DNA of 64,000 bases from Rhodococcus sp. BP22 (GTDB lineage: Bacteria > Actinomycetota > Actinomycetes > Mycobacteriales > Mycobacteriaceae), in NCBI RefSeq assembly GCF_014281965.1, contig NZ_JACFTB010000010.1:1-64000 (forward strand). The letters are read 5' to 3'. The position numbers were made by a program, and so were the translations under genes. Positions within the stretch are counted from its first letter, which is position 1; each line of letters begins with the position of its first letter. The notes beneath the pieces were generated by a model. The model was not told the DNA's origin. It saw nothing but the letters and a program-made list of their open reading frames with translations, and searched no databases. Shown piece by piece: positions 14,517 through 31,052 of the stretch.

Positions 14517-15527
14517 ATGAAAGCTGCTGTCGTTACCGAGTTCGGTGCGCCCCTCGTCGTCCAGGACATTCCTGTTCCCATCCCGGGACCCCAGCAGGTG
14601 CTCGTGAAAATTCAAACCTGCGGGGTGTGCCACACCGATATTCACGCTGCGAATGGTGACTGGCCCGCCAAGCCGACCGTGCCCTTCGTCCCAGGGCACG
14701 AGGGTATCGGCCTCATCGAGGCCGTGGGATCACAAGTGTCCGAGGATCGAATCGGCGAGCGCGTCGCCATCGCGTGGCTGGGTTCGGCGTGCGGTGAGTG
14801 CGATTACTGCGTATCCGGGTGGGAGACCCTGTGTGAGAAACAGCAGAACAGCGGCTACTCGATCGATGGGGCGTACGCCGAATACGCAGTGGCAGATGCT
14901 CGTTACGTCACCCACGTGCCAAATGGAATCTCTTCCTTCGACGCCGCTCCATTGACCTGCGCAGGGGTAACCACCTACAAAGCGGTCAAAGTCGGCGGGG
15001 TGTTGCCGGCTCAGCGTGTTGCGATCTTCGGTGTCGGCGGCCTTGGCCACATGGCTGTGCAATATGCCAAGATTGCCGGAGGATTCGTCACCGCCGTCGA
15101 CATCGAAGACGAGAAGTTGGAACTCGCGACCGAACTCGGGGCCGACCACACCGTCAACTCGTCGACGACGGACCCGGTCGAAGCGATCCGCGCACTCGGC
15201 GGTGCCGATGTCGCGATCGTATTGGCAGTGATTCCCGAGGTATTCGACCAAGCTTTCCGATCACTCCGTCGCGGTGGGCGGCTGGTGTGTGTGTCCATGC
15301 CTGCTCATGGAGTGTTCCCCGTGCCGATCTTCGAGACCGTGGTCGGTGGCATCTCGGTGCTCGGCTCGATCGTCGGCACTCGGAAGGATCTACGTGAAGT
15401 ATTCGCCTTGCACGAGGCCGGTCGGACGAAGGTCTCCGCAGTGTCTCGCAAGCTCGACGAAGTCAACGAGTGTTTCGACGACCTGCTCGCCGGCCGATTG
15501 ACTGCGCGAGCGGTCTTCGAGTTCTGA
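14517..15527 (+). CDS. Zinc-dependent alcohol dehydrogenase (AdhP/AdhA type)
   Basis: A 336-residue medium-chain alcohol dehydrogenase. Catalytic zinc ligands are in CGVCHTDIH and GHEGIG; the structural zinc site is CGECDYC plus the Cys of WETLC; the Rossmann motif is FGVGGLGHMAVQ (about 170-181). It interconverts aldehydes and primary alcohols with NAD(H), and with little oxygen could re-oxidise NADH. GGAGG eight bases before the ATG gives a strong start. The gene is set apart by a terminator upstream and carries a DosR-box-like sequence about 100 bp in front. A paralogue with the same motifs is at 28374-29375. Confidence 0.92.
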   Translation: MKAAVVTEFGAPLVVQDIPVPIPGPQQVLVKIQTCGVCHTDIHAANGDWPAKPTVPFVPGHEGIGLIEAVGSQVSEDRIGERVAIAWLGSACGECDYCVSGWETLCEKQQNSGYSIDGAYAEYAVADARYVTHVPNGISSFDAAPLTCAGVTTYKAVKVGGVLPAQRVAIFGVGGLGHMAVQYAKIAGGFVTAVDIEDEKLELATELGADHTVNSSTTDPVEAIRALGGADVAIVLAVIPEVFDQAFRSLRRGGRLVCVSMPAHGVFPVPIFETVVGGISVLGSIVGTRKDLREVFALHEAGRTKVSAVSRKLDEVNECFDDLLAGRLTARAVFEF

Positions 15528-15688
15528 TGGTGGCGGACGCCATCTCGATGAGTACGCGGACAATGCCGAAGCGCTTCTCGCCCCGCAGGACATCGGCCGA
15601 GGTCATGACGGGAGTGCAGACGCCGTAGGGTTCGGGAGGGCAAGCACGTGCAGAAACCGCGTGTGGCCACAACGAATCGAGCAGCGTG

Positions 15689-16477
15689 ATGAACGCAGAG
15701 GACATCGGTGGTCCGGAGCGGTTAGCTGTACGTGCAGGGACCACATACCCTGACGAGCTCGACGACGATTTCAGAGCGAGTCTGGCAGACCTGGGTAAGC
15801 TCGCGATGAGCACGTTGACCCTGTCGGAGACGCTGTCCCACGTGGCAGAGTTCGCGGTGCGGGCCATCCCCGGCGCCGATGGGGCAGGGCTGACGCTTCT
15901 CCATTCGGACAAGCCTCCGACGATTGTCGCCAGCGCGGACTTCGTCCGAGTGGTCGACGGCATTCAGTACGGGCTGGGGGAAGGCCCGTGCATCACGGCA
16001 GCCGCGAAGGGCATCACAGTCCGGTCGGGCTCGCTCGACGCAGATCCTCAATGGCCAGAGTTCGGGCCCCAGGTCGGTCATCTGGGAGTTCATAGTGTGC
16101 TGTCGCTGCCGCTGGTCACCCGAGCCGGTGTGCTCGGAGCGATGAATGTCTACGCCCATCAGCCGGACGCGTTCGACGACCGCTCCGTAGAACTCGGCGA
16201 ACTCTTTGCAGTCCCTGCCGCGGTCTCGGTTCAGAACGCACGTGCGTTGGCCAGCGCCGTGCAACTCACCGAGCAGCTCGAAAAGGCTCTCAGCAGCCGA
16301 GCGGTGATCGATCAGGCAATCGGTATTCTGATCAGCAGAAGCGGATGCAGCGGCACTGAAGGGTACGAAAAACTTCGAACGCTCAGCCAGAACGAACACA
16401 AGAAGCTCGTCGTGGTGGCGGATACGATAGTTGCCGAGGCGATGAAGACTGCCCGTTCGCGTCTTCGACGGAAATAA
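15689..16477 (+). CDS. GAF and ANTAR domain regulator
   Basis: A 262-residue protein with an N-terminal GAF domain (about 35-175, including EGPCITAA and HSVLSLPL) and a C-terminal ANTAR RNA-binding domain (about 195-255, beginning LSSRAVIDQAIGILISRSGCS). ANTAR proteins bind paired hairpins in nascent transcripts and prevent termination. The GAF may sense a small ligand or redox state. A GTG directly in front of the ATG is an alternative start. It shares strong similarity with the GAF-ANTAR protein at 22539-23342, so they are paralogues inside the same island. Confidence 0.88.
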   Translation: MNAEDIGGPERLAVRAGTTYPDELDDDFRASLADLGKLAMSTLTLSETLSHVAEFAVRAIPGADGAGLTLLHSDKPPTIVASADFVRVVDGIQYGLGEGPCITAAAKGITVRSGSLDADPQWPEFGPQVGHLGVHSVLSLPLVTRAGVLGAMNVYAHQPDAFDDRSVELGELFAVPAAVSVQNARALASAVQLTEQLEKALSSRAVIDQAIGILISRSGCSGTEGYEKLRTLSQNEHKKLVVVADTIVAEAMKTARSRLRRK

Positions 16478-16518
16478 GTCCGTCGCAGGGTGCTGCGAGC
16501 ATCGCTCACCGAAAGAGG

Positions 16519-16570
16519 GTAGCGTCGACGGCGCAGGTGAACCCGAGACTCGGAGTCCGACTTTGGTCTC
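16519..16570 (+). promoter_or_regulatory. Promoter-like GTAGCGTC element and weak DosR-like box
   Basis: GGGTAGCGTC ends at 16526; the same GTAGCGTC octamer recurs upstream of the SPFH gene (18308) and the P-type ATPase (23374), and GTAGCGTT at 47859. Further downstream CCGACTTTGGTCTC (16557-16570) is a weak match to the DosR-like box at 45256. Position relative to the gene at 16654 fits a promoter region. Confidence 0.3.
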
Positions 16571-16653
16571 TCACGTGCATCTCCCTAACGGAAATTTGAC
16601 TCCGCAGGGTCCTGGAAGTATCGAACAGGCGATCGGGCCGCACTGGATTCTCG

Positions 16654-17253
16654 ATGGAACTACAACGTCGGTTGATGGCCGACCTCTTCCTACTTACCGA
16701 AGCGCTCGACAGTGACACAGTCGATCTCGCACATCTGGCGCTTCGGCTGGTGTCCGACATAGACGATGCCGTGTCGTCCGTCGTCTCCGTTTCTCTCACC
16801 ATCACGATTGATGGTGGACAGTTCGAGGTTGCGGCGTCGACGGAGGATGGAAACGCGTGCGGTGCTGTGTCGTCTCTACGGATCACTCTGCCGGGTCTAC
16901 CGAACACGTGTGCCGTTGCGCAACTGGTGATTCTCTCCGGGACAGTCGGTGCTTTCGTGGATCTCGCTGCGGACGTGACCTATTCACTCGGGCTGGCCGG
17001 CGCCGCGATCGTCCTCGACGACCGTATTCGACACACCGACAAAAATGAGATGACTGCAACAGATGTTCAGCGGACGCTCTCTACGGTCAGCGTAATCAAT
17101 CAAGCAGTGGGAGTGCTCATCGAGAGCGGCCGAACACCCTGCGAGGGACGCGCGGAATTGCATCGTCTTGCGCTGCAATCGGGCTCACCGGCTATCGAGA
17201 TTGCCCGACGGGTCCTACGTGATGCCCTCGGCTGGCATCCGCCCCGATGCTAG
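16654..17253 (+). CDS. ANTAR-type regulator with divergent N-terminal domain
   Basis: About 199 residues. The C-terminal 60 residues (from RTLSTVSVINQAVGVLIESG) match an ANTAR domain, with a poorly conserved second half. The N-terminal 120 residues form alternating strands (SLTITIDGGQFEVAAS and following) that look like a reduced GAF or sensor domain; I do not recognise it clearly. It probably arose from the same family as its neighbour at 15689 but has diverged, and could form mixed dimers with it. No strong ribosome site precedes the ATG. Confidence 0.7.
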   Translation: MELQRRLMADLFLLTEALDSDTVDLAHLALRLVSDIDDAVSSVVSVSLTITIDGGQFEVAASTEDGNACGAVSSLRITLPGLPNTCAVAQLVILSGTVGAFVDLAADVTYSLGLAGAAIVLDDRIRHTDKNEMTATDVQRTLSTVSVINQAVGVLIESGRTPCEGRAELHRLALQSGSPAIEIARRVLRDALGWHPPRC

Positions 17254-17314
17254 CGGATCGACCCTGATACTTGAAAATCAATGCAGCACTAAAGGATCGA
17301 AAAGATAGCCGCTG

Positions 17315-17734
17315 TCACTTGAACCGATCGGCGATGATGTGGCGCGGAAGTTGGAGCGGACTCGGATAGGCAACGAGAATTCGGTTCCCATCCGGGTCCC
17401 GTCCGTCGAGGAATTTCACTCCGCCGGCGCTGTGAATGTACGTGGACGGATAGTGTTGTCGCAATCGTTCACCGACCTGTTCGAGCTCTTCCTCGGTCGC
17501 GGTGGACCACATGACCTCTTTCACTCCGAGGGCGTCGATGGGCCGTTGCGCCAATGATCGGTTCGCGTACAGATAGATCTGAAATCCGTCCGGTGCCAAC
17601 AACAGTGCCGCATCCGACTCCCGTAACGCGACAATGCATTCGAAGACCTCGCAGTAGAACTTGGTCGAGATTTCGAGCTCGAGTACTCCCATCAGCATCG
17701 ACGAGACAGCCACCGAAGGAACGTTGGGTGGCAC
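17315..17734 (-). CDS. Glyoxalase/bleomycin-resistance (VOC) family protein
   Basis: A 139-residue VOC-fold protein: strand MGVLELEIS, helix TKFYCEVFEC, strand LLLAPDGFQIYLY, and the late VKFLDGRDPDGNRILVAYP motif with the C-terminal metal-ligand position. Members are metal-dependent lyases, isomerases or dioxygenases, or binding proteins; no substrate is indicated. The start is uncertain: I use GTG 17734, which clears the upstream universal stress gene (stop at 17754); ATG 17692 would be too short for the first strand. It lies 19 bp behind that stress gene and is probably co-transcribed. Confidence 0.65.
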   Translation of the reverse strand: MPPNVPSVAVSSMLMGVLELEISTKFYCEVFECIVALRESDAALLLAPDGFQIYLYANRSLAQRPIDALGVKEVMWSTATEEELEQVGERLRQHYPSTYIHSAGGVKFLDGRDPDGNRILVAYPSPLQLPRHIIADRFK

Positions 17735-17753
17735 GGACCCGGCGTTGCCCGCG

Positions 17754-18224
17754 CTAGTGATGATCCCTCGAATGAACGACGAGCACCGGGCATCGAGCAT
17801 GCTCGGCGCACTGTGCACTGACCGATCCCAACAGCAGACCGACGAACCCGCCACGACCGCGGCTTCCTACGACGAGCATGTCTGCCACTCGACTGGCGTC
17901 GAGCAGTACCTGGGCTGGAACACCTTGTACCGCAAACTGTCCGATGTCGGTCGGTGCGTCGTCACCGAATGCGGCAACGATCGCATCGGCCATAATCTGC
18001 TTGGCGTCCTCATCGGGGTGAACGTCGTTCGCGAAGCCCTCACCCATGTATGTCGGATACTGCCACGCAGCCATGACATCTATGCCGATTCCTAATGCCT
18101 CCGATATCCGTCGCGCTTGCTGCAGTGCCAGGATCGAGGAGGGTGAACCGTCGACGCCCACGACTATGCGGCCTGTGGGTTCAGAAGGATCCGTCTGGGT
18201 CTCACTGGTCGGTGTTGTACTCAT
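17754..18224 (-). CDS. Universal stress protein, single domain
   Basis: A 156-residue UspA-fold protein. After a 17-residue Thr/Ser-rich leader come the first strand IVVGVDGSPSS and the ATP-binding motif VVGSRGRGGFVGLLLGS (about 125-141), so ATP binding is likely. ATG 18222-18224 is used; the frame stays open much further upstream but that part overlaps the regulatory region and has no domain similarity. A DosR-box-like sequence lies 36-49 bp upstream. It is one of six universal stress genes in 31 kb; mycobacterial relatives are induced by hypoxia and nitric oxide. Confidence 0.9.
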   Translation of the reverse strand: MSTTPTSETQTDPSEPTGRIVVGVDGSPSSILALQQARRISEALGIGIDVMAAWQYPTYMGEGFANDVHPDEDAKQIMADAIVAAFGDDAPTDIGQFAVQGVPAQVLLDASRVADMLVVGSRGRGGFVGLLLGSVSAQCAEHARCPVLVVHSRDHH

Positions 18225-18259
18225 CTGTTGATACTGCACGCTGGTTGCGCGTCTCGTCA

Positions 18260-18315
18260 GAGTCTTTTGTCCCGATATGTCAGGGACCACGTGGGACCCG
18301 AAAAGGGGTAGCGTC
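18260..18315. promoter_or_regulatory. Divergent control region: DosR-like boxes and GTAGCGTC element
   Basis: GAGTCTTTTGTCCC (18260-18273) reads on the other strand as GGGACAAAAGACTC, close to a DosR box. GGGACCACGTGGGACCC (18283-18299) is a second dyad-like sequence around a CCACGTGG core. GGGGTAGCGTC follows at 18305-18315 and could be the promoter for the plus-strand SPFH gene. The region lies between the divergent universal stress and SPFH genes. Confidence 0.45.
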
Positions 18316-18522
18316 GACGTTGCTGAGAACTTCAGCTGGTTCGGGAAGAATTTCGCCGTCCGCCGCGGAATTGCTGGGGTATTCGGCTCCGCGGCCCGTA
18401 TGAATCGATGATCGTTTGTAAGTCTGGATCGCCATGACAGTTTCATATAGCTCTTCTGTTGAGCGGTCACCCGTGCTCTGCGGTAAATGCGCTGTGCTCG
18501 TTCATGCCTCAGGTCTCCAGTG

Positions 18523-19377
18523 ATGAATGCACTGGTCGTGGTGGTTGTCATTCTCATCGCGCTGATCCTGCTGCTGGCGTTGTCGGTGCGGGTCGTCAAG
18601 CAGTACGAGGACGGTGTGCTCTTTCGGCTGGGTCGGGTAATCGGAGAACGTGCACCGGGCCTGAGATTCATCGTTCCGTTCGTCGATGTGCTGCATAAGA
18701 TTTCGTTGCGAATCGTGACGATGCCGATCCAGTCACAAGGCATCATCACCCGTGACAACGTAAGCGTCGACGTCTCGGCGGTGGCTTACTTCAAGGTGGT
18801 CGACGCGGTGAAGTCGGTCGTCGCGATCGAGAACGTCTACTCGGCGATCGACCAGATCGCACAAACCACGCTGCGCAAGGTCGTCGGCCAACACACCTTG
18901 GACGAGACTTTGTCGGAGACCGACAAAATCAATCTCGACATCCGGGCCATCCTGGACGTCACCACTATCGAATGGGGCGTGCAGGTCACCCTGGTCGAAC
19001 TCAAAGACATCCAATTGCCCGACACCATGAAGCGAGCGATGGCCCGACAAGCGGAAGCCGAGCGAGAGAAGCGCGCGAAGATCATTGCCGCCGAGGGTGA
19101 ATCGTTGGCTGCGGCAGCGTTGGGTGACGCCTCCGACACCATGATGGCGCATCCATTGGCGTTGCAGTTACGCAACTTGCAGACATTGGTCGAGCTCGGC
19201 GTCGACAAGAACACCACCGTCGTTTTCCCGGCACCGTTGATGTCGACGATCGCCGAGCTTGGGAGTTTCCTGGCACGGGAGAGCTCGGCAGCAGTCGAAC
19301 CCGCGACGCAGGTTCCTTTTTCTGCGCCGACCGCAATGGTGCCGAACGGCAAATCCGCGGGGGAGGGTTTGCGGTGA
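18523..19377 (+). CDS. SPFH/stomatin-like membrane protein (slipin)
   Basis: A 284-residue SPFH protein. One N-terminal transmembrane helix (residues 2-20, [18 protein letters not shown]) is followed by the Band-7 domain (about 25-195, with [12 protein letters not shown] and the signature around [16 protein letters not shown]) and a helical [17 protein letters not shown] segment that drives oligomerisation. Slipins organise membrane microdomains and associate with proteases and transporters. ATG 18523 is chosen since it starts right at the membrane helix. No NfeD partner is adjacent; instead phosphoketolase follows 92 bp downstream on the same strand, an unusual pairing. Confidence 0.9.
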
Positions 19378-19469
19378 TTGCCACGGCTCACAAATTCGGC
19401 GCCGCCACACCCACCGGTGCCCAACTCGACCGACAGTGAAGTTCCCCATGCTGAGAACAAGGACACCCC

Positions 19470-21857
19470 ATGACCGACACTGTAGTGATGCCACGCGCCA
19501 ACACACTGGAACCTCAACTACGGCGGAGGATGCACGCGTACTGGCGCGCGGCGAATTACCTCTCGGTCGGCCAGATCTACCTCTATGACAATCCGCTGTT
19601 GGCCAGGCCGCTGGTGCTCTCGGATGTCAAACCGCTCGTTGTCGGTCACTGGGGAACGACGCCGGGGCAGAACTTCATCTATGTGCATCTGAACCGTGCA
19701 ATCAACAAGTACGGCCTGGACATGTTCTATGTTGCGGGGCCCGGTCATGGTGGTCCTGCCCTCGTCGCGAACACCTATCTGGAAGGTTCTTACTCCGAGA
19801 TATATCCCGACGTGAGCCAGGATGAGGCGGGGATGAAGAAGTTGTTCACCCAATTTTCGTTCCCTGGAGGTATTTCCAGTCACGTGGCGCCGACGACTCC
19901 GGGATCGATTCACGAAGGTGGAGAACTCGGCTATTCGCTGAGCCACGCTTTCGGCGCCGTATTCGACAATCCGGATCTGATCGTGGCGTGCATCATCGGC
20001 GACGGTGAGGCCGAGACCGGTCCGCTGGCCACAGCGTGGCATTCCACCAAATTTCTCAACTCCATCAGCGATGGAGCGGTCCTGCCGATCCTGCATCTCA
20101 ACGGATTCAAGATCAGCAATCCTACCCTGCTCTCGCGGATAGAACCCGAGGAACTCGATCAATTCCTTCGTGGCTGCGGGTGGGATCCACGCTACGTCGA
20201 AGGTGACGATCCGGACGTGATGCACGAGCTCATGGCTACCGTGCTGGACGAAACGATCGAGACCATTCACACCATCCAACACCACGCCCGGACGACGGGT
20301 AACAGCGCAAGACCGAGGTGGCCGATGATCGTGCTGCGGTCGCCGAAGGGATGGACCGGTCCGAAGTTCGTGGACGGCGTGAAGATCGAAGGGACTTTCC
20401 GGGCACACCAGGTACCACTGCTGGTCGACGAGGCGCATCCGCAGCACGTCGAGCAACTCGACGCCTGGATGCGCAGTTACGAACCTGAGGAGCTCTTCGA
20501 TCCGTCCGGTCGCCTCCTACCCGAACTCGCCGAACTTGCTCCCTATGGAGAGAGGCGGATGGGGGTCAACCCACACACCAACCCAGGCGTGCGCCGTGAC
20601 CTCGCGATGCCCGACTACCGCACCTACGCCGTGGCCGTGACCGCGCACGGTGCAGTGAGCGCCGAAGACACCCGAGTGCTCGGGACCTTCCTGCGCGACG
20701 TGATCACCGCGAATGACGAGGCACGCAATTTCCGCATCTTCGGGCCCGACGAAACGCTGTCCAACAATCTCGGTGCTGTCTTCGAAGTCACCGACCGGCA
20801 GTGGGAAGCTCGCACCGTAGACAACGACGAAGATCTTGCGACCCAGGGGCGGGTCCTGGATTCGATGCTCAGCGAGCATCAAAGCGAGGGTTGGCTCGAG
20901 GGTTACCTGCTCACCGGACGGCACGGGCTGTTCAACTGCTACGAAGCATTCATCCACATCGTCGACTCGATGTTCAACCAGCACGCCAAATGGCTCAAAA
21001 TAACTTCGGAACTACCATGGCGGCGAAATATCGCCTCCCTGAACTATCTACTCGCTTCCCACGTCTGGCAGCAGGACCATAACGGATTCACACATCAAGA
21101 CCCCGGCTTCCTCGACCACGTCGTCAACAAGAAAGCAGACATCGTCCGGATCTATCTGCCGCCGGACGCCAACTGTCTACTCTCGGTGGCGGACCACTGC
21201 CTCCGTAGCCGCCATTACGTCAACGTGATCGTCGCCGGCAAACACCCGATGCCGCAATGGCTCACAATCGAGCAGGCCGAAGTGCACTGCACCGAAGGAA
21301 TCGGCATCTGGGAATGGGCCGGCAACGACGCCGGTAACGAACCAGACATCGTATTGGCGTGCTGTGGCGACACCCCGACCCTCGAAGTGTTGGGAGCGGT
21401 GTCGATCCTGCGGGAACACTTGCCTGAGCTGAAGGTTCGGGTCGTCAACGTCGTGGACCTGATGAAGCTGCAATCCCCGAGCGAGCACCCGCATGGATTG
21501 TCCGACGGCGATTACGACTCGATGTTCACCGTCGGTAAGCACATCATCTTCGCTTTCCACGGGTACCCGTCTCTGATCCACCGACTCACCTATCGTCGTA
21601 CAAATCGAAATCTTCATGTCCGTGGATACAACGAAGAAGGCAGTATCACAACCGAATTCGATATGAGGGTGCAGAACAGGCTCGACCGATTCCACCTCGT
21701 CATGGACGTCATCGACCGGCTCCCGCAACTTGGTGGCACTGCCGACTACCTCAAGCAGACGATGGCCGACAAGCTCGTCGAGCACAACCGCTACATCGAT
21801 ATTCATGGCCAGGACCTTCCCGAGATTCGCAACTGGATCTGGAACCCGAAGTTGTGA
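19470..21857 (+). CDS. xfp: Phosphoketolase (xylulose 5-phosphate/fructose 6-phosphate)
   Basis: A full-length 795-residue thiamine-diphosphate enzyme that cleaves xylulose 5-phosphate (and often fructose 6-phosphate) with phosphate to acetyl phosphate plus an aldose phosphate. Diagnostic stretches are [48 protein letters not shown] and the ThDP-binding [15 protein letters not shown] (about 174-188). AAGGA precedes the ATG by 7 bases. It lies behind the SPFH gene and before a decayed HAD/GH65 gene. Acetate kinase or phosphotransacetylase, which would use the acetyl phosphate, are not in the window. Its place in a DosR-associated island suggests a low-oxygen carbon shunt. Confidence 0.95.
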
Positions 21858-22001
21858 CAAGCACATCGGCTATTCCGAACCTGCCACCCACTCGCCGGTC
21901 ATGGCGGCGAAAAGGTAACCTAAAACGCTGTATCAAGCGGCGAAATGTGGACGTCGCGCTGCTCGGCATACGAGTGAAAGTACGTCCAGGACCTGTTTTG
22001 C

Positions 22002-22340
22002 TCACATGCGACGAAGTCGCCTATGCACCGGCGTGCGTCCCGCCGGTCGAGTGGGCGTCGGCCGCGGCGTCGGATGAGGGATCGGTAGCTGCAATGGTTG
22101 TCCGGCGATGACCTGGGCGGGGTGTCCGTGGTGGACGACGTCCATCGGAGCCCCGTCGGTGAGGGAGTAGCGAGCAGATCCCTGGGTGACTTCGACATAC
22201 AGTCGTTGACCGCGCAGAAACAAGGTTTGCCTCAGCACACCGTCGAGATCGAACAGACAGCCGCGTACCTGATCCGGGAGACCCAACACGTCGTCGACGC
22301 AAAGCTGCCGGCCGCCGCGGCCGCCGAGGCACAGAACCAT
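22002..22340 (-). pseudogene. Relic: HAD phosphatase start fused to GH65 C-terminus
   Basis: This 112-codon frame begins like a beta-phosphoglucomutase of the actinobacterial type: LGLPDQVRGCLFDLDGVL includes the HAD motif I DxDG. Right after this, at LRQTLF, it turns into the last part of a glycoside hydrolase 65 (maltose/trehalose phosphorylase) protein: LRGQRLYVEVTQGSARYSL, then a Pro-rich end. In actinobacteria these two genes are neighbours in this order, so one deletion inside the pair, removing well over 2 kb and kept in frame, explains the product. It lacks all other catalytic parts of both enzymes. It may be expressed but should be inactive. Confidence 0.65.
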
Positions 22341-22538
22341 CAGCACTTTTAATTCTCTTGGTAATTGATTGTATTTCGATAAGGACCGGCAAGGTTCACC
22401 TGAATTTGTATCCGCGACGGCGCTACTGTTGGTGTGAGAATCCACCTCGCGGCCGTCGGCTGTATGGGTATGTCGTCGGGGATCTGTCTCGGTACGGCGG
22501 GCCTGGAGCGGACTGATCGAGCACCAAGGGAAATGCGG

Positions 22539-23342
22539 ATGACGGAGTTCACCGAAGTAGTTCACAGTATTCGAGCTGGATCATTGACTGCGGAGCAGGC
22601 CAGCGCAGATTACGCCGACTTACGAAGCGCCATAGGTGAATTGGCAGGCCTGGTGGCGGATTGCGGCGGACTCGTCGAGTTGTTGACCGACGTCGCGGCT
22701 TTTGCAGTTCGTGCGATTCCCGGTGCGGATGGTGCTGGGGTAACGCTGTTGCGCGTCGACCGGACCGACAACTTGGTCGAAGCATTGGCAGCGAGCGCTT
22801 CGTTCGTCGCCGAAATCGACAAGATTCAGTACGAGACGCTGCACGAGGGGCCCTGCATCACCGCAGCTTTGGAGCGCCGCACAGTGCGATCGGGGTCGTT
22901 GGGCGGGGAGCAGATGTGGCCGCGATTCGGTCCACGTGTGGGCAGACTGGGCGTGCACAGTGCACTGTCGCTACCGCTGTTGCTGCCTGACCGGGTGGTC
23001 GGGGCCATCAACGTCTACGCCCGAGATAAGAATGTCTTCGGTGAGCACGCCGTCGAGCTCGGGGAACTGTTCGCCAAACCGGCGGCAGTCGCCGTCCGCA
23101 ACGCCCAGATCCTCGCCCAGGCGAGGACACTGGCTGCTCAGCTACAGACCGCTCTGTCGACACGACCGGTGATCGATCAAGCGATCGGCCTGCTTCGCGG
23201 ACGCAGCGGGAGCAGTGCCGAGGACGCTTTCACCCAATTGAGGGCGATCAGCCAGGCCGAGCATCGCAAATTGGGGGAGGTGGCCCAACGCATCGTCGAC
23301 GAAGCCGTTCGCCGTGCGATTGCCCGTCACAACCCGGTCTGA
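22539..23342 (+). CDS. GAF and ANTAR domain regulator
   Basis: A 267-residue paralogue of the protein at 15689. The GAF domain spans about residues 30-185 (EGPCITAA and VHSALSLPLLLPD are shared motifs), and the ANTAR domain starts near residue 200 with LSTRPVIDQAIGLLRGRSG and ends in VDEAVRRAIARH. It should act as an antiterminator on RNA hairpins. AAGGG eight bases before ATG 22539 supports this start; ATG 22533 is the alternative. It is upstream of the P-type ATPase with a 215-bp gap and so probably a separate unit. Confidence 0.88.
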   Translation: MTEFTEVVHSIRAGSLTAEQASADYADLRSAIGELAGLVADCGGLVELLTDVAAFAVRAIPGADGAGVTLLRVDRTDNLVEALAASASFVAEIDKIQYETLHEGPCITAALERRTVRSGSLGGEQMWPRFGPRVGRLGVHSALSLPLLLPDRVVGAINVYARDKNVFGEHAVELGELFAKPAAVAVRNAQILAQARTLAAQLQTALSTRPVIDQAIGLLRGRSGSSAEDAFTQLRAISQAEHRKLGEVAQRIVDEAVRRAIARHNPV

Positions 23343-23347
23343 ATCGC

Positions 23348-23381
23348 GACCGCTCCGTCCCGGTCGATGGGGTGTAGCGTC
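23348..23381 (+). promoter_or_regulatory. Promoter-like region of the P-type ATPase gene
   Basis: A dyad GACCG...CGGTC (23348-23365) enclosing GTCCC is followed by GGGTGTAGCGTC ending at 23381. The GTAGCGTC octamer is shared with sites at 16519 and 18308. The ATPase start lies 177 bp downstream. Confidence 0.3.
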
Positions 23382-23557
23382 AACTGTGTTGAGACACTCA
23401 GCCAGTCCGAAATGAAGGTGGCTGTCAGCCGCACCCCTCAGAGCAATCGCTCACAGCCGGACACTTCGGTGACACCGCAATTTTCGGGGATCGCCATGAA
23501 TTCTTTACCGGACCTTCTCGCGCCCAATGTCTTTGGCGCCGGAAGCAGGTCAGCGCT

Positions 23558-26074
23558 ATGACTGCGGCTGACCCGCAGACCGCGCCGCGACGGTCCGCGG
23601 GCCCGTCAGCACCGGATACCGATTTCAAGTCGGTGCCGCTGGCCACAGTAAAGACGCAGCTCGGCTACTCACCGGACGGACTGAGCATTGCCGATGCTGC
23701 GAAGCGGTTGGTCCAGTACGGGCCGAACGAGATTGCTGAACACAGGACCAATCCACTGCTGAAATTCCTGAGCTACTTCTGGGGCCCGATCCCGTGGATG
23801 ATCGAGATCGCCGTCATTCTGTCCGGCGCAGTCGGGCACTGGCCGGATTTCTTCATCATTCTGGTGCTGCTAGTGGCGAACGGTGTTGTCGGATACACCG
23901 AGGAACGCCAGGCAGGCAACGCGATCGACGCGCTCAAAGCCAAGTTGGCCATCACTGCGCGCGTCACCCGCGATGGTAAGTCGGTCACCGCACCGGCACG
24001 AGAGCTGGTGCCGGGTGACGTCATCCGCTTACGTCTCGGTGACATCGTTCCTGCTGATGCACGACTGCTCGATGGTGACGACATCGAGGTCGATCAGTCG
24101 GCACTGACCGGGGAGTCTCTGCCTGCCGCCGCCGCAACCGGCGACGCAGTGTTCTCGGGGTCGGTCATCCGACAAGGGGAAGCCAGTGCGTTGGTATACG
24201 CCACCGGTAGCGGCACCTATTTCGGGAAGACCGCGGAATTGGTGCAAGACGCGCACACAGGGAGCCATTTTCAAAAGGCTGTGGTTCAGATCGGCAACTA
24301 CCTGATCATTCTGGCGGTTGTGCTTGTCTCGCTCATCGTCTTGGTAGCCGCGCTGCGCGGAGACGAGATCCTCACGACTCTGCAGTTCGCTCTGGTCCTG
24401 ACCGTTGCGTCGATCCCGGTGGCAATGCCGACCGTGTTGTCGGTGACGATGGCCGTAGGCGCACGGCTGCTCGCCAAGAAGCAGGCCATTGTGAGCCGAT
24501 TGGTTGCCATCGAGGAACTTGCCGGTGTGGACGTGCTGTGCGCCGACAAAACAGGCACACTCACCCAGAACTCACTCACGTTGGGTGTCCCGTTCGCTGT
24601 CGATGGCGTGACCCCGGCAGCTGTTGTTCTCGACGGTGCGCTGGCCTCTCGCGCGGACAACGACGACCCCATCGACCGCGCCGTCTTGGGCGGACTCGAC
24701 GATGAGACAATTTTGAACACCTACACCGTCACTCACTTCGCACCTTTCGACCCGGTGCACAAACGCACCGAGGCTACCGTCACCGCATCCGACGGGGCCA
24801 CGTTCCGAGTCACGAAGGGCGCGCCACAGGTCATCTTGGCGCTGGCCGCACCGTCTGAACAGATCACCCGAGCCGCCGACGGTGCCGTCGATGATTTCGC
24901 CGCGCACGGATTCCGGTCGCTGGGCGTGGCCCGCGCCGACAAAGACCGTGACTGGCGCTTCGTCGGAGTTCTGCCCTTGTTCGATCCTCCGCGCGAGGAC
25001 GCTGCGGAAACCATCTCCACCGCTGCCGCGATGGGCGTCACCGTCAAGATGGTCACCGGTGATGCGCTGGCCATCGCCAAAGAAACTGCGTCCAAAATTG
25101 GTTTGGGCACACACATTCTAGATGCAGCGGCATTGGGTGACGTGAAGAAGAAGGAATCGGCAGCAGTGGCCGAATCCATCGAGACCGCAGACGGTTTCGC
25201 TCAAGTCTTTCCAGAGCACAAGTACCACATCGTCGACGTTCTACAGAAGCGTGGCCACATCGCCGGCATGACCGGGGACGGGGTTAACGACGCCCCCGCA
25301 TTGAAGAAGGCAGACTGCGGCATTGCCGTCTCCGGTGCGACCGACGCCGCCCGCGCGGCCGCCGATATCGTGCTGATGACTCCTGGTCTCTCGGTCATCA
25401 TCGAGGCGATCAAGGAGAGCCGCAAGATCTTTCAGCGGATGAACAGCTACGCCATCTACCGCATCGCGGAGACGTTGAGGGTGCTGCTGTTCATGACCGT
25501 TGCCATCCTGGTCTTCAACTTCTATCCGGTCACCGCCATCATGATCGTGATGCTCGCGCTGCTCAACGACGGCGCCATATTGTCCATTGCCTACGACAAA
25601 GTGCACTACCGCAATGAACCCGAGGCATGGAACATGCGCATGGTGCTCGGTATTGCCACAGTTCTGGGCGTGGTTGGGCCGATCGCCGCTTTCGGATTGT
25701 TCTACCTGGGCGACCGTGTCTTCGAACTCGGCCACGCGCGCGTACAGACGTTGATGTATCTCATGCTTTCCGTCGCCGGGCACCTGACGATCTTCCTGAC
25801 CCGCACCCGCGGGCCGTTCTGGTCCATTCGCCCCGCCCGCATCCTGCTGATCGCTGTCTGCGGCACCCAGGCCGTTGCGACCCTCATAGCCGTCTACGGG
25901 CTCTTCATGTCCCCTCTCGGCTGGGGATGGGCCGCCGCAGTCTGGGGTTACGCACTCTTGTGGTTCCTTGTCAGCGACCGCATCAAACTCCTTGCCTACC
26001 GAATCCTCGATCCGCCGCGTCGGGCGGAGAGACCGTCCGACACCACCGAAGTGCTCACATCCGCATCGTCGTGA
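23558..26074 (+). CDS. P-type ATPase, plasma-membrane H+-ATPase type (P3A)
   Basis: An 838-residue P-type ATPase. It contains the actuator loop TGES, the phosphorylation motif DKTGTLTQN with Asp330, a nucleotide domain with KGAPQVI, the hinge GDGVNDAPALKKADCGIAV and ten membrane helices. The motif set and the short N-terminus without metal-binding Cys match P3A proton pumps more than the CtpF Ca2+-type pump of the mycobacterial DosR regulon. It would expel protons at the cost of ATP and so hold membrane potential when respiration is slow. It is flanked by a GAF-ANTAR gene and by a convergent SulP transporter. Confidence 0.9.
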   Translation: MTAADPQTAPRRSAGPSAPDTDFKSVPLATVKTQLGYSPDGLSIADAAKRLVQYGPNEIAEHRTNPLLKFLSYFWGPIPWMIEIAVILSGAVGHWPDFFIILVLLVANGVVGYTEERQAGNAIDALKAKLAITARVTRDGKSVTAPARELVPGDVIRLRLGDIVPADARLLDGDDIEVDQSALTGESLPAAAATGDAVFSGSVIRQGEASALVYATGSGTYFGKTAELVQDAHTGSHFQKAVVQIGNYLIILAVVLVSLIVLVAALRGDEILTTLQFALVLTVASIPVAMPTVLSVTMAVGARLLAKKQAIVSRLVAIEELAGVDVLCADKTGTLTQNSLTLGVPFAVDGVTPAAVVLDGALASRADNDDPIDRAVLGGLDDETILNTYTVTHFAPFDPVHKRTEATVTASDGATFRVTKGAPQVILALAAPSEQITRAADGAVDDFAAHGFRSLGVARADKDRDWRFVGVLPLFDPPREDAAETISTAAAMGVTVKMVTGDALAIAKETASKIGLGTHILDAAALGDVKKKESAAVAESIETADGFAQVFPEHKYHIVDVLQKRGHIAGMTGDGVNDAPALKKADCGIAVSGATDAARAAADIVLMTPGLSVIIEAIKESRKIFQRMNSYAIYRIAETLRVLLFMTVAILVFNFYPVTAIMIVMLALLNDGAILSIAYDKVHYRNEPEAWNMRMVLGIATVLGVVGPIAAFGLFYLGDRVFELGHARVQTLMYLMLSVAGHLTIFLTRTRGPFWSIRPARILLIAVCGTQAVATLIAVYGLFMSPLGWGWAAAVWGYALLWFLVSDRIKLLAYRILDPPRRAERPSDTTEVLTSASS

Positions 26075-26194
26075 GACCAAAATCAACTCTGGCCGAATAG
26101 TTTAGTGGCACAAGAACGATGGGATCGCCTACGTGAGTGCCCCGGCCGGCACCGCAGGCATCGTGGAAACGTTGGTCCCGACAAAACGTCCAAC

Positions 26195-27964
26195 TCATAT
26201 TTCTCCCCGGGCTATCTCAGCGGCGTTGGGTGAATTCAACTGCGACGTAACTGGTGTGCTCTCGGCTTCCAATCGGGGACTGAGGGCGCTTACGGCCTCT
26301 CCGACAGATTCGAACAGGTGCTCCTCTCCGATCAGCGCAAGCAGCCCACTCCGCGCCAAGCCTCTGCGCGCCGTCTTGCTGGTTCTTGCCATTGCGAAGG
26401 TGATTCCCCTCGATCGGAGTTGATCGATCAACTGCCGCAACGAGTGCGCTCCCGTGTAGTCGATATCGGTCATCCCCATCGTGTCGAGCACGACGAGGTG
26501 CAGGGGATGATCCGCGGCGTCGATCGTGGCCGTTATCTCGGTGCGAAATTCGGTTGCGTTGGCGTACCACAGAGGCGTCGCGAACTGTACGACGAGGACA
26601 CCGGGAACCGTTCTCGCTTGTTCGGCGTAGCTCAGGGGCACCCAACTGGTAGTCGATGGGATGTGTCCCAGTACGTGCAGGTGGGGACGGGCGCTGAGGC
26701 GGGTGCGGTCCAGAATTGCCAACGCTACCGCCACGCCGATGCCGTACTCGACCCCAACGAGGGCAACTGTCAGGAGAGTGACCACGGCGAGAGCGAACTC
26801 GAAACGGTCGTAGCGGGCAATGTCGATCAGCTCGCGTACGTGCACGATTCGGGTGGCGATGAAGATCAGAATCGCAGCCAGGGTTGCCACTGGCAGGTTC
26901 TCGAGGAGCGCCAGAGCGGGGATCAGCAACACGAGTGCGCCGGCAGCAGCGATGCCGGCTACCTGGGTCCGTCCCGACGCCGAAACCACTGCTGCAGTTC
27001 GTGGCGGGCTCGCGTTCACCGGAAACGCACCCACTAGACCTGCGGCGACATTGCCGGCTCCGATGCCGAGGAAGTCGCGATTGACATCCACGTCATAACC
27101 GCCCTTGTCGGCGAAAGCGCGCGTGGTCGCCGCACTCTGGCTGACGATCACCAGTGCGACGACACCGGCGATGGGCGCAAGTGTGCTCAGCGCCGACCAC
27201 GACACCCCGTGCAGTCCGAGATGGGGAGCGCCGTGTGCGAGCGAACCCAGCACTGCTACCCCGTGGGAAGTCAGATTCAACGCGCCGACGAGGATCGTCG
27301 ATCCCACCAGTGTGATCAAGGCCCCCGGAATTCGTCGATCCACCTGATCGGCGAGAAACACGACAGCGAAAACCCCGGCCCCGATACCCAACGTCCAGCC
27401 GTTGACCATGGCCGAGTCGCTGACGATCAGTCGGATTCGGTTCAACGTCCCACCGCTGACGGTTGGCAGGCCGAGCAGGTCGGGCAGCTGATGCACAACG
27501 ATGATGATCGCGACTCCACCGAGGAACCCAGCGATGATCGGCGTCGACAGGAACTCTGCAATCCATCCGAGTCGCAGTAGGCCCACCAGGGCCACGATCA
27601 CACCCACCATCACCGCGAGGATTCCCACCGACGCCACATAATCACCGGGGGCGGTCGATACCGCAGTGGCGATTCCGACGGCGAAGAGTGGGGCGATCGT
27701 CGAATCAGCCCCGATCGACATCTGCCGGTTCGATCCGAGCAACGCGAACAGGAGTGTGCCTGCAACGAACGCGTAGAAGCCCGTGATCGGCGGCATACCT
27801 GCCAGCCGTGCAGTGGCCAATTGCTCGGGCACCGCGATCGACAAAAGCGTAAGTCCCGCGAGCAGATCACCGAGTAGCCAGGACCACCGATAGCCCTGCA
27901 ACGATGAAAACAGTACCGGCCCTACACAACGCACCCGACGTGTCAACGCCGACTTCGGATGCAT
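26195..27964 (-). CDS. SulP-family anion transporter with STAS domain
   Basis: A 589-residue carrier. Ten to twelve membrane segments include the SulP signature region near the N-terminus (AVPEQLATARLAGMPPITGF) and a C-terminal STAS domain (about 440-560, with TMGMTDIDYTGAHSLRQL). Members move sulfate, bicarbonate, chloride or dicarboxylates. AAGGAGG five bases before ATG 27964 is a near-perfect ribosome site. It converges on the P-type ATPase gene, leaving a 120-bp gap with no clear hairpin. Bicarbonate or a dicarboxylate is a reasonable substrate guess in this setting, but the sequence does not decide. Confidence 0.9.
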   Translation of the reverse strand: MHPKSALTRRVRCVGPVLFSSLQGYRWSWLLGDLLAGLTLLSIAVPEQLATARLAGMPPITGFYAFVAGTLLFALLGSNRQMSIGADSTIAPLFAVGIATAVSTAPGDYVASVGILAVMVGVIVALVGLLRLGWIAEFLSTPIIAGFLGGVAIIIVVHQLPDLLGLPTVSGGTLNRIRLIVSDSAMVNGWTLGIGAGVFAVVFLADQVDRRIPGALITLVGSTILVGALNLTSHGVAVLGSLAHGAPHLGLHGVSWSALSTLAPIAGVVALVIVSQSAATTRAFADKGGYDVDVNRDFLGIGAGNVAAGLVGAFPVNASPPRTAAVVSASGRTQVAGIAAAGALVLLIPALALLENLPVATLAAILIFIATRIVHVRELIDIARYDRFEFALAVVTLLTVALVGVEYGIGVAVALAILDRTRLSARPHLHVLGHIPSTTSWVPLSYAEQARTVPGVLVVQFATPLWYANATEFRTEITATIDAADHPLHLVVLDTMGMTDIDYTGAHSLRQLIDQLRSRGITFAMARTSKTARRGLARSGLLALIGEEHLFESVGEAVSALSPRLEAESTPVTSQLNSPNAAEIARGEI

Positions 27965-28022
27965 CGATGCCTCCTTGCATCGCCGTCAACTGTGAACATG
28001 AACAGCCCGAGCCGGATTGGAG

Positions 28023-28235
28023 TCAGCCGCGGAGTTGCATTGCTACGTGGTCGAGGAGAGTTCGATACTCGAGGAGATCGATATCGCCGCGCGCATAGCG
28101 TGCAGCGAACAGCTCCTCCAACGTGCCGGGCCCGTCGAGGTGCGTCGCGGTTCGGATGGCAGGGGAGCGGAAGCCGAATCGCACAGTCCCGAGAGCAGCT
28201 GCCACGACAAGGGTGACTACGAGGGCGAGCGTCAT
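28023..28235 (-). CDS. Small membrane protein with SHOCT motif
   Basis: A 70-residue protein: an N-terminal hydrophobic helix (residues 2-17, TLALVVTLVVAAALGT) and a C-terminal SHOCT-type segment LEELFAARYARGDIDLLEYR (about 40-59). SHOCT segments mediate oligomerisation and are often tethered to the membrane like this. It lies 58 bp upstream of the SulP gene on the same strand, so the two may be co-transcribed from a promoter that carries the DosR-box-like sequence at 28310. Confidence 0.75.
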   Translation of the reverse strand: MTLALVVTLVVAAALGTVRFGFRSPAIRTATHLDGPGTLEELFAARYARGDIDLLEYRTLLDHVAMQLRG

Positions 28236-28309
28236 GATTTTTGTCCTTCTCGGTGACCGGGTGTCGACTTCTGAACATCATTTTGACTCAGCCTCACGGA
28301 CCAGGAGAA

Positions 28310-28323
28310 GGGACTTTGTGCCC
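28310..28323. promoter_or_regulatory. DosR-box-like sequence upstream of the SHOCT/SulP genes
   Basis: GGGACTTTGTGCCC is one of the best matches in the window to the mycobacterial DosR consensus half-sites GGGACT and GTCCC. It lies 75 bp before the SHOCT peptide start on the minus strand. Confidence 0.55.
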
Positions 28324-28373
28324 AAGTGTGCGGCCGAAGGTGTTCAGGCCGTGGTGCACTACAAACGACGGCG

Positions 28374-29375
28374 TCAGAATGTGATGACTGCAGCGCCGGC
28401 AAAACGGCCGTGGCGGAGATCCCGCAAGGCGGACAGCGCGCGGTCGAAAGGGTAGACCGTAGTTTCGATCCTCAGGCGCGTTCTCTGGCAGCGTTCGAGG
28501 AATTGTCGAGCATCGGCCCGCGTATTCGCTTCGACGCTCAGCAGTCGCTTTTCGTGGAACAGATGCCGGTTGTAGTTCAGTCGCGGAATGTCTGTCATGT
28601 GAATGCCTGCCAGTACGACTGTACCCCCGGAGTCGACGGCTTCCAATGCCGTCGGAACAGCCTCACCGATAGGCGCGAAAACAATGGCGGCGTCGAGCTT
28701 CTCCGGTGGTGAATCGAAGGTGTCCTGTGCCGACGCGAGCCCCATCTTCAGTGCGAGCTGTCGGGCACCGAGGTCCCGAGTCATGACGTGCACGGTAGCG
28801 CCGTCGGCCTGCGCCAGCTGCGCGACTATGTGTGCGCTCGCGCCGAAACCGTACAGACCGAGCTTCCCCGACGGCGGGAGTTCGGCTCTACGCAGGGCGC
28901 TGTATCCGATGATCCCTGCGCACAGCAATGGTGCCAGTTCTACGGTGCTGTACCCGGTCGGTAGTGCCAAGGCGTAGTCGGCTGGCACCACTGCGTGCTC
29001 TGCGAACCCGCCGTTGTGATCCCATCCGGTGTACAGCGATGCCTTGCAAAGATTTTCGCGACCACTCACACAAAATCGACATTTGCCACAGGTATGACGG
29101 AGCCATGGAATTCCGACGATGTCACCCACGCTGAAGTCGGTCTCGGTGTTGCCCCCGACCTCGGTTACCGTGCCTACGATTTCGTGGCCGGGCACTACAT
29201 GCGGCCGATGAATTGGAAGGTCGCCTTCGACGACGTGGAGGTCGGTTCGGCATACGCCGCACGCTTGGACAGATATCAGTAACTCGCCGGACGTCGGTCG
29301 AGGCATGTGCTCATCGACCAACTGCAGGGGACTACCGTCTACGCTGCCCTGTTCGGTGACCCTCCAGGCCTTCAC
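28374..29375 (-). CDS. Zinc-dependent alcohol dehydrogenase
   Basis: A 333-residue medium-chain dehydrogenase. Zinc ligands are in CGVCRTDLH, GHEIVG and CGKCRFC with the Cys of RENLC; the cofactor loop is YGFGASAH. Three of the last residues of the cofactor loop differ from the paralogue at 14517 (Gly-Leu-Gly is Gly-Ala-Ser), suggesting a different cofactor or substrate. The start is GTG 29373-29375, immediately after the TGA of the upstream universal stress gene with no base between, so translation is coupled. Likely aldehyde reduction for NADH re-oxidation under low oxygen. Confidence 0.9.
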   Translation of the reverse strand: MKAWRVTEQGSVDGSPLQLVDEHMPRPTSGELLISVQACGVCRTDLHVVEGDLPIHRPHVVPGHEIVGTVTEVGGNTETDFSVGDIVGIPWLRHTCGKCRFCVSGRENLCKASLYTGWDHNGGFAEHAVVPADYALALPTGYSTVELAPLLCAGIIGYSALRRAELPPSGKLGLYGFGASAHIVAQLAQADGATVHVMTRDLGARQLALKMGLASAQDTFDSPPEKLDAAIVFAPIGEAVPTALEAVDSGGTVVLAGIHMTDIPRLNYNRHLFHEKRLLSVEANTRADARQFLERCQRTRLRIETTVYPFDRALSALRDLRHGRFAGAAVITF

Positions 29376-30314
29376 TCAGCGCACCACCAGAATCGGACAG
29401 TGCGAACTGTGTACGAGCGATTGCCCGACCGAGCCGCGGATCGAACCCGCCACTGGACCGAGCCCCCGGCTCCCGACGACGACGAGGCGCGCTGTTTCGG
29501 ACGCCCTGCGTAACTCGTGGTCTGCCGATGCCTCGAGACAATGCAGGTGAAACTCGACCGAGGGATGACGCTCGGAGGTCGCCCTCACACGAGACCCCAG
29601 CCAAGCAAGAGATCCCGCTTTCGGTTCCTGTGCGTCTGCATCTACCGTCGTCGCCGGTCTATGGCTCCCTGATGAAACCATGTGGAGGGCCATGAGCGGA
29701 GCCTGCAAGGTGTCGGCGAACCAGAATGCGCCGAGGATTGCGCCGTGCGAAGAGTCGGAGTTGTCGACACCGACGACGACTGGCTGGGAGGTCACAGCGG
29801 GGGCGACGGCATGCGGCCGCCACACGACGACTGGGCATTGAGCGTCGGCGACTATGCGAGTTGCATGGTGGCCGAAGACCACATCTCGAACAGGACTCGA
29901 AGGAGTGCCTCCGATCACGATCAAATCTGCGGTGTGCGAAAGCGCGCCCAGGAACGATGCGATGGGATCGTCGGTCAGGACTGTGTCGACTGCGATGTCG
30001 GGATCGATACGATCGACTTCGTTGCGGGATGACCGGAGAAGGCGTTTGCCGAGGAGTCGCGGTTTGGATGCGCGCAGTTCTCGCGTCACCCTGTTTGCCG
30101 ATTCTCGCTGTGGCAGTGCGTGAACGATCCGAATTCTTGCCTTGACGTCGTGTGCCAACCCGGCCGCCCACACGAGTGCGCCTCGGGAGGATTCCGACCC
30201 ATCGACGCCGACGACGATTTCGGTCAACACCGTGTTCGTCCAGACCGTCGTCGAGGGGGGCTTGTGCGTTGCGTTCACAGAGTTCTCACGATCGCTCCGT
30301 CGACCATCGGGCAT
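29376..30314 (-). CDS. Universal stress protein, tandem domains
   Basis: A 312-residue protein of two UspA domains. Domain 1 starts at EIVVGVDGSESS and ends near VIGGTPSSPVRD, where the nucleotide loop is degenerate. Domain 2 starts at VVVGVDNSDSSHGA and ends with VVGSRGLGPVAGSIRGSVGQ, a complete ATP motif. So ATP would bind only the second domain. ATG 30312-30314 is listed; GTG 30278 (VNATHKPP), with GAGAA six bases upstream, is at least as good. It is translationally coupled to the alcohol dehydrogenase downstream, an arrangement also found in mycobacterial stress regulons. Confidence 0.88.
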   Translation of the reverse strand: MPDGRRSDRENSVNATHKPPSTTVWTNTVLTEIVVGVDGSESSRGALVWAAGLAHDVKARIRIVHALPQRESANRVTRELRASKPRLLGKRLLRSSRNEVDRIDPDIAVDTVLTDDPIASFLGALSHTADLIVIGGTPSSPVRDVVFGHHATRIVADAQCPVVVWRPHAVAPAVTSQPVVVGVDNSDSSHGAILGAFWFADTLQAPLMALHMVSSGSHRPATTVDADAQEPKAGSLAWLGSRVRATSERHPSVEFHLHCLEASADHELRRASETARLVVVGSRGLGPVAGSIRGSVGQSLVHSSHCPILVVR

Positions 30315-30430
30315 AGTGCATCGAGCATAGCCTCGCTTCTACGGTTGCGACTTCACTTCTACGCAGGTTCATCCGACAACCGGCACGAATCCCAGCAGAC
30401 ATCGGGCGGACCGTCGAAGAACGGGAGGTG

Positions 30431-30952
30431 TCACGGGAGTGTCGGAACCGTCGGCTCGGACTCGGCCAGTGTCGCGCCGATCGAGCGCGCCCACCCCTCG
30501 ATCTCGTCGCGTGATCGGTCGTCTCCCTCATCGGCTCGAATGAGCCGCACTACGAGTCTCTCGAACCAGGAAAGCGTCGACAGGTCGAACTTTCCCCCGA
30601 AGACGCGGTGCTCGACCGCCCACGATGCCTTGTCCATGGCTGATGGTGCCGAGGGCTTACCGGCGGCGCCGATGGGTCCGCTGGAGAACAACCACACCGG
30701 GCGTGTTTCGAGTTCGGGTTGTTGGCGCGCGACGAGAGATCGAGCACCGCGCAACCAACGGCCCATGTATACGGCGCTGCCGATGATCGCCGCATCGTAT
30801 TCGGCGATGCTGTCCACGTCAGCTGCGTCGCTGACCTCCACTGTCGCCGAAACACCCGAATTCTGTAGGGCATCGGTCAGCGAGGACGAAAGCCACTGTC
30901 CGATCTCACGTGTCGAACCGTGCCGGCTCGAAGTTGCAATCAGGACGCGCAT
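30431..30952 (-). CDS. Flavodoxin-domain protein
   Basis: A 173-residue flavodoxin of the protoporphyrinogen-oxidase-like (HemG-type) group. The FMN phosphate loop is ATSSRHGSTREI (about 6-17), and the second loop has IIGSAVYMGRWL, typical for this family. It would shuttle electrons via FMN. Transcribed to the left behind the regulatory region 30953-31214, whose DosR-box-like sequence at 31053 lies about 100 bp upstream; the divergent universal stress gene shares this region. Confidence 0.85.
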   Translation of the reverse strand: MRVLIATSSRHGSTREIGQWLSSSLTDALQNSGVSATVEVSDAADVDSIAEYDAAIIGSAVYMGRWLRGARSLVARQQPELETRPVWLFSSGPIGAAGKPSAPSAMDKASWAVEHRVFGGKFDLSTLSWFERLVVRLIRADEGDDRSRDEIEGWARSIGATLAESEPTVPTLP

Positions 30953-31052
30953 TACGGTGTTCCTTCTCCTCGAGACCTGGACTTCGACGCTGTTGCGTCC
31001 AGAGGCCGTTGTACGTAGACATCACTGTGAACGTCTGCCGCCGGCGCGTATA

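Follow-up and report, generated by a model that had tools for sequence, protein, structure and literature searches.

A 112-codon reading frame in a Rhodococcus carbon and stress island is very probably the scar of a pgmB-GH65 deletion

The window, the stretch of DNA analysed here, comprises 64,000 nucleotides of Rhodococcus sp. BP22 (contig NZ_JACFTB010000010.1) and contains at 22002-22340, on the minus strand, an open reading frame of 112 codons running from ATG to TGA (MVLCLGG...GLPDQVRGCLFDLDGVLRQTLFLRGQRLYVEVTQGSARYSLTDGAPMDVVHHGHPAQV...RRLRRM*), whose frame extends upstream as far as a GTG at 22565 (187 aa). It is flanked on one side by an intact phosphoketolase gene (xfp; dN/dS 0.10) and on the other by the intact gene of a GAF-ANTAR protein (dN/dS 0.23), as a preliminary description of the locus had stated. 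That description had also seen in this frame HAD motif I directly followed by a GH65-type C-terminal end, and the juxtaposition is real: on translation the motif I context GLPDQVRGCLFDLDGVL passes directly into TLFLRGQRLYVEVTQGSARYSLTDGAPMDV, residues 40-77 match PF03633 (GH65C; E=2.1e-7, passing the curated cutoff), and both halves match their parent genes. The Pfam match corresponds to the second half of the domain (model positions 25-62 of 62) and is the sole family found. The 112 residues matched no HAD model in Pfam, because the HAD-like part consists of the first ~36 residues only, and an NCBIfam search with them returned nothing useful.

To define the state from which this frame arose we compared the locus across 37 genomes of the genus. 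The fusion is present in one of these, the window's own; the short gene is thus not common to all relatives, the circumstance that the preliminary description had named as contradicting a relic. Instead, in Rhodococcus sp. 1163 (G021; NZ_MKKX01000006.1, locus L008), which served as the intact reference, and in a second genome (G029), complete genes for pgmB (269 aa) and GH65 (784 aa) lie between the phosphoketolase and GAF-ANTAR genes within flanks 96% identical to those of the window; such a pair in related strains had been proposed as the proof of a deletion. The gene order in L008 is slipin/SPFH, xfp, class I fba and gpm (all on the plus strand), GH65 and pgmB (minus), GAF-ANTAR and a proton P-type ATPase (plus), and SulP (minus), and in G021 pgmB and GH65 overlap by ATGA like a translationally coupled pair. 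All three Pfam domains of GH65 enzymes are present in the GH65 protein of G021, which finds maltose phosphorylase (1h54) as its top match among solved structures, and the intact HAD protein (P0003) scores above the cutoff of TIGR02009, the NCBIfam beta-phosphoglucomutase-family model. The tail of the 112-residue product matches inside the intact GH65 of both relatives (95% identity over 76 aa) and its head matches the adjacent pgmB (E=5e-12, 51% over 68 aa spanning the junction); as alignments go, these matches are well past chance. An intact GH65 of the same subfamily is found in 149 of 301 family genomes, and pgmB adjoins it in several genomes whose neighbourhood was read; hence, two whole genes are the ancestral condition. 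The earlier suggestion that a phosphorylase branch once belonged to this island and was then lost is likewise borne out, as the relatives keep GH65 and pgmB at the same place.

Collinearity of the window with G021, at ~96%, extends over 15445-21870 and 22225-31024, and between these blocks only 22009-22226 aligns (97.2%, to L008 8393-8610). The window sequence across the junction is AAACAAGGTTTGCCTCAGC, with AAACAAGGTGAATG as the GH65 side and GCTGTTTGCGTCAGC as the pgmB side. Relative to G021-type sequence 2,807 bp are missing and a GT is common to both edges as a 2-bp microhomology, which supports the explanation of the fusion by one 2,807-bp deletion at GT/GT, the single event that had been anticipated from the fused frame. 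The frame was kept because 2,807 is 2 modulo 3, which matches the two-base offset between pgmB and GH65; its retention is a matter of luck, with a one-in-three chance. The direction of the change is certain, since a 112-aa chimaera of two fragments cannot precede the whole enzymes present in 149 of 301 family genomes. At the other end of the frame two alignments overlap (21926-22017 with L008 8043-8138, and 22009-22026 with L008 8393-8410), and the new terminal ATG and TGA appear to come from the 3' flank of gpm through one more deletion. A further difference between the sequences lies within the second collinear block, at the gap 26016-26215: these ~200 bp, which in the window lie between the genes of the proton ATPase and SulP, are missing from G021 and G029 (L008 15196-15200), where the C-terminus of the ATPase is altered and reads into the SulP gene, the mark of a separate deletion in those relatives.

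Set against the classes to which it might be assigned, the frame shows the following: 1) Of a GH65 enzyme it has half of PF03633, and the central catalytic domain PF03632 with the catalytic glutamate is missing. 2) Of a beta-phosphoglucomutase or other HAD enzyme, with its full fold comprising motifs I-IV and a cap, it keeps the motif I region only. 3) Like a deletion-fusion pseudogene, it derives from two genes that relatives carry whole at the corresponding locus, within collinear flanks. 4) It has a single junction with a microhomologous breakpoint. We therefore put at about 0.95 the probability that this frame is a pseudogene scar of a pgmB-GH65 deletion. The features of the locus are collected in Table 1.

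Table 1. Features at and around the fused reading frame, in window coordinates; L008 is the intact locus of Rhodococcus sp. 1163 (G021)
Feature	Position	Strand	Evidence
In-frame fusion relic, pgmB start and GH65 tail	22002..22340	-	Translation, Pfam GH65C, alignment to G021 pgmB and GH65
pgmB head, about 36 codons including HAD motif I FDLDGV	22227..22340	-	Matches L008 11418-11522, intact pgmB
Deletion junction, GT microhomology	22225..22226	.	L008 8609-8610 and 11416-11417 both GT
GH65 end, last ~73 codons: GH65C second half and Pro/Arg-rich end	22008..22224	-	97.2% nt, L008 8393-8610
New last codon ATG and stop TGA, replacing native GH65 end	22002..22007	-	Overlapping alignments to L008
Phosphoketolase (xfp), intact, island copy	19470..21857	+	98% aa to G021 and G029
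GAF-ANTAR regulator, intact, divergent from relic	22539..23342	+	Pfam ANTAR and GAF
First 17 bases of fba, GTG start overlapping xfp stop	21854..21870	+	Aligns to L008 6413-6429
Internal class I fba relic	21876..21923	+	CHPLAGHGGEKVT vs THPLAGHPGEKVT; tblastx E=1.7e-5
gpm (histidine-phosphatase/phosphoglycerate-mutase-like) 3' end and 3' flank relic	21926..22000	+	RCIKRRNVDVALL vs RCVGRWNVDAALL

By alignment, the loss exceeds that recognized in the preliminary description, as fba and gpm are gone too. In the relatives a class I fba and a phosphoglycerate-mutase-like gpm sit between xfp and GH65, and the distance from the end of xfp to the end of GH65 is 1,963 bp against 138 bp in the window. 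A translated comparison revealed in 21854-22008 of the window eroded scraps of both genes in the order and on the strand seen in the relatives; the internal fba scrap is identical to G021 at 29 of 40 bases and the best block of the gpm scrap at 30 of 39 nt. These scraps are short and partly gapped, and their breakpoints are less certain than the pgmB-GH65 junction. The absence of fba is a loss, because fba comes straight after xfp on two plasmids, those of Rhodococcus AQ5-07 and Frondihabitans PAMC 28766, and on the G046 chromosome. Therefore, at least four deletions took fba and gpm together with the greater part of both GH65 and pgmB, and left xfp. The placement of the relic right behind phosphoketolase had been correctly observed, but this adjacency is itself a result of decay, since fba and gpm once lay between the two. 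The spacer (21857-22010) has no match in the plasmids and no meaningful match in the 37 genus genomes; its interpretation as a foreign insert was rejected when the translated comparison identified the fba and gpm scraps, and a search around it for mobile-element terminal or direct repeats recovered only short, imperfect ones.

The divergence of the scraps bears on how the spacer came about. They are roughly 75% (about 72-77%) identical to G021 at the nucleotide level, as against 96% in the flanks, and the fba scrap is about equally near its counterparts in Frondihabitans and AQ5-07. The mismatches to G021 cluster abruptly from 21848, with a single one in the preceding ~310 bp (21537-21847). 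With an island dS of 0.09-0.16 relative to G021, neutral drift since the split from that lineage is too brief to account for a 25% difference, and hence the spacer is either older or from another allele. These observations would fit a variant history, in which part of the sequence was acquired by recombination with a diverged and already decayed fba-gpm allele, in place of stepwise deletions on one allele. We regard this variant as possible, though less likely than not: the scraps are short and gapped, and the GH65 tail (97%) and the pgmB head are at ordinary divergence, which implies that the large deletion lies in DNA of ordinary descent. Moreover, the replaced allele could instead be that of G021 and G029, which was itself probably exchanged recently. 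The islands of these two species (L008 1-20000 and L009) are 99.5% identical over 20 kb, whereas their neighbouring DNA is 92-98% identical, another region 96% and one further locus 88.6%; thus, they count as one intact allele and not two, and the island was probably exchanged recently between the two lineages.

Apart from the origin of the spacer, we considered whether the fused frame encodes a genuine small protein under selection, built from the HAD N-terminus and a fragment of the GH65C beta-sandwich. The frame is open, its start and probable promoter region are retained, and the GH65 half differs from G021 by 2 nonsynonymous and 5 synonymous changes over 73 codons; the open frame and this ratio would alone fit constraint. 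However, the fusion is unique to one of the 37 genus genomes, GH65C is half present and the HAD fold mostly gone. Further, 70% of simulated neutral copies were still open at 4% divergence (57% at 6%), and an open frame is hence no evidence of function. The pgmB head shows about 5 nonsynonymous and 2 synonymous differences along with a 9-bp length difference, and the two halves together, entered as ~7 nonsynonymous to 6 synonymous, lean nominally towards a nonsynonymous excess over the island genes (Fisher p=0.055) and do not differ from neutrality (p=0.12). These tests used 2:4 for the tail where the listed changes give 2:5, or 7:7 combined; with either count the few changes speak neither for nor against purifying selection. 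Most of these substitutions may be older than the deletion. A selected protein is accordingly very improbable, and we give equally little credence to its more specific form, in which the fusion is expressed as protein from the ancestral pgmB promoter, with its HAD motif I leader and GH65C half-sandwich kept for a binding or regulatory role. An assembly artefact, with the deletion absent from the living strain, is more improbable still: although the genome is a draft of 34 contigs, the site lies in the middle of a 139-kb contig, no assembler working from G021-type sequence would yield the diverged remnants of fba and gpm, or the several distinct deletions, in this interval, and a genome search recovered no second pgmB or GH65 of the same type elsewhere in the assembly, such as displaced intact DNA might show. 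Ordinary gene decay, and not a new protein, is the best explanation, and a functional small protein is unlikely.

The scar can be compared with two known arrangements of these enzymes. The Rv3400/Rv3401-type operons of Mycobacteriales have the same two genes in the same order and orientation, with pgmB immediately upstream of GH65, and the GH65 proteins of the intact relatives are 54-75% identical to many family members; in the window, by contrast, both genes are truncated and fused, and no catalytic domain is left. The premise that HAD and GH65 are normally separate adjacent genes holds at the G021/G029 locus but is not general, as the genome of the window also encodes a natural HAD-GH65 fusion of 1,051 aa (C29:16282-19437). 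Such natural fusions resemble the scar in having HAD N-terminal and GH65 C-terminal in one frame, but they keep both full catalytic domains and their GH65 part is about 30% identical, whereas the window's fusion is a scar of 112 aa. In titles and abstracts on actinobacterial HAD-GH65 fusions and on Rv3400/Rv3401 we found nothing that alters the interpretation as a scar. The genome of the window also contains a second phosphoketolase (C3:46130). Since the intact relatives have both this gene and the 1,051-aa fusion, these paralogs make the loss tolerable at most, and they may be why the lost branch was dispensable.

Islands on the plasmids of AQ5-07 (L094, NZ_CP046101.1) and Frondihabitans PAMC 28766 (L095, NZ_CP014514.1) likewise cluster slipin, xfp, fba, gpm, a P-type ATPase, GH65, pgmB and USPs; they differ in gene order, and the window copy is without fba, gpm, GH65 and pgmB. 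A plasmid set comprising phosphoketolase, class I aldolase, histidine phosphatase, proton ATPase, slipin, USPs and GH65/pgmB recurs in bacteria of different phyla that are polar or associated with lichens (L094, L095, H42-H51), and among the titles and abstracts covered we found no paper describing such an island or plasmid gene set. The proton P-type ATPase of Frondihabitans (L095 16154-18570) is unannotated, is recovered as two overlapping tblastn pieces and looks frameshifted. Rhodococcus sp. 1163 was isolated in the sub-Antarctic and has Antarctic soil strains as its nearest neighbours (PMC8227252). Of the plasmids with the same gene set, that of AQ5-07 is from a polar source and that of Frondihabitans from the Antarctic lichen Himantormia, and lichens are a frequent source of the other plasmids that combine xfp with class I fba. 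These origins offer a lead towards a common island linked to cold or desiccation.

In the history that we propose for the scar, the ancestor had two converging operons, xfp-fba-gpm on the plus strand and pgmB-GH65 on the minus strand. Judging from the functions of their families, GH65 would phosphorolyse an alpha-glucoside to beta-glucose 1-phosphate, PgmB would convert this to glucose 6-phosphate, and phosphoketolase, further downstream, would yield acetyl phosphate. In the lineage of the window, as the alignments show, the 2,807-bp deletion at GT/GT joined pgmB at codon ~36 to a GH65 remnant of ~75 terminal codons, and other, separate deletions took nearly all of fba and gpm. The fused peptide should be without enzyme activity because, beyond HAD motif I, it has neither the remainder of the HAD fold nor the GH65 catalytic domain. 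The former pgmB promoter may still drive transcription of the scar, as the region up to the GAF-ANTAR gene is retained. Annotation pipelines may label such a scar as a GH65 protein. The locus offers a clean case of gene decay, early enough for the main breakpoint to be resolved to the base, and indicates that in cold-habitat rhodococci a carbon and stress island can drop its alpha-glucoside and aldolase branches and yet retain phosphoketolase.
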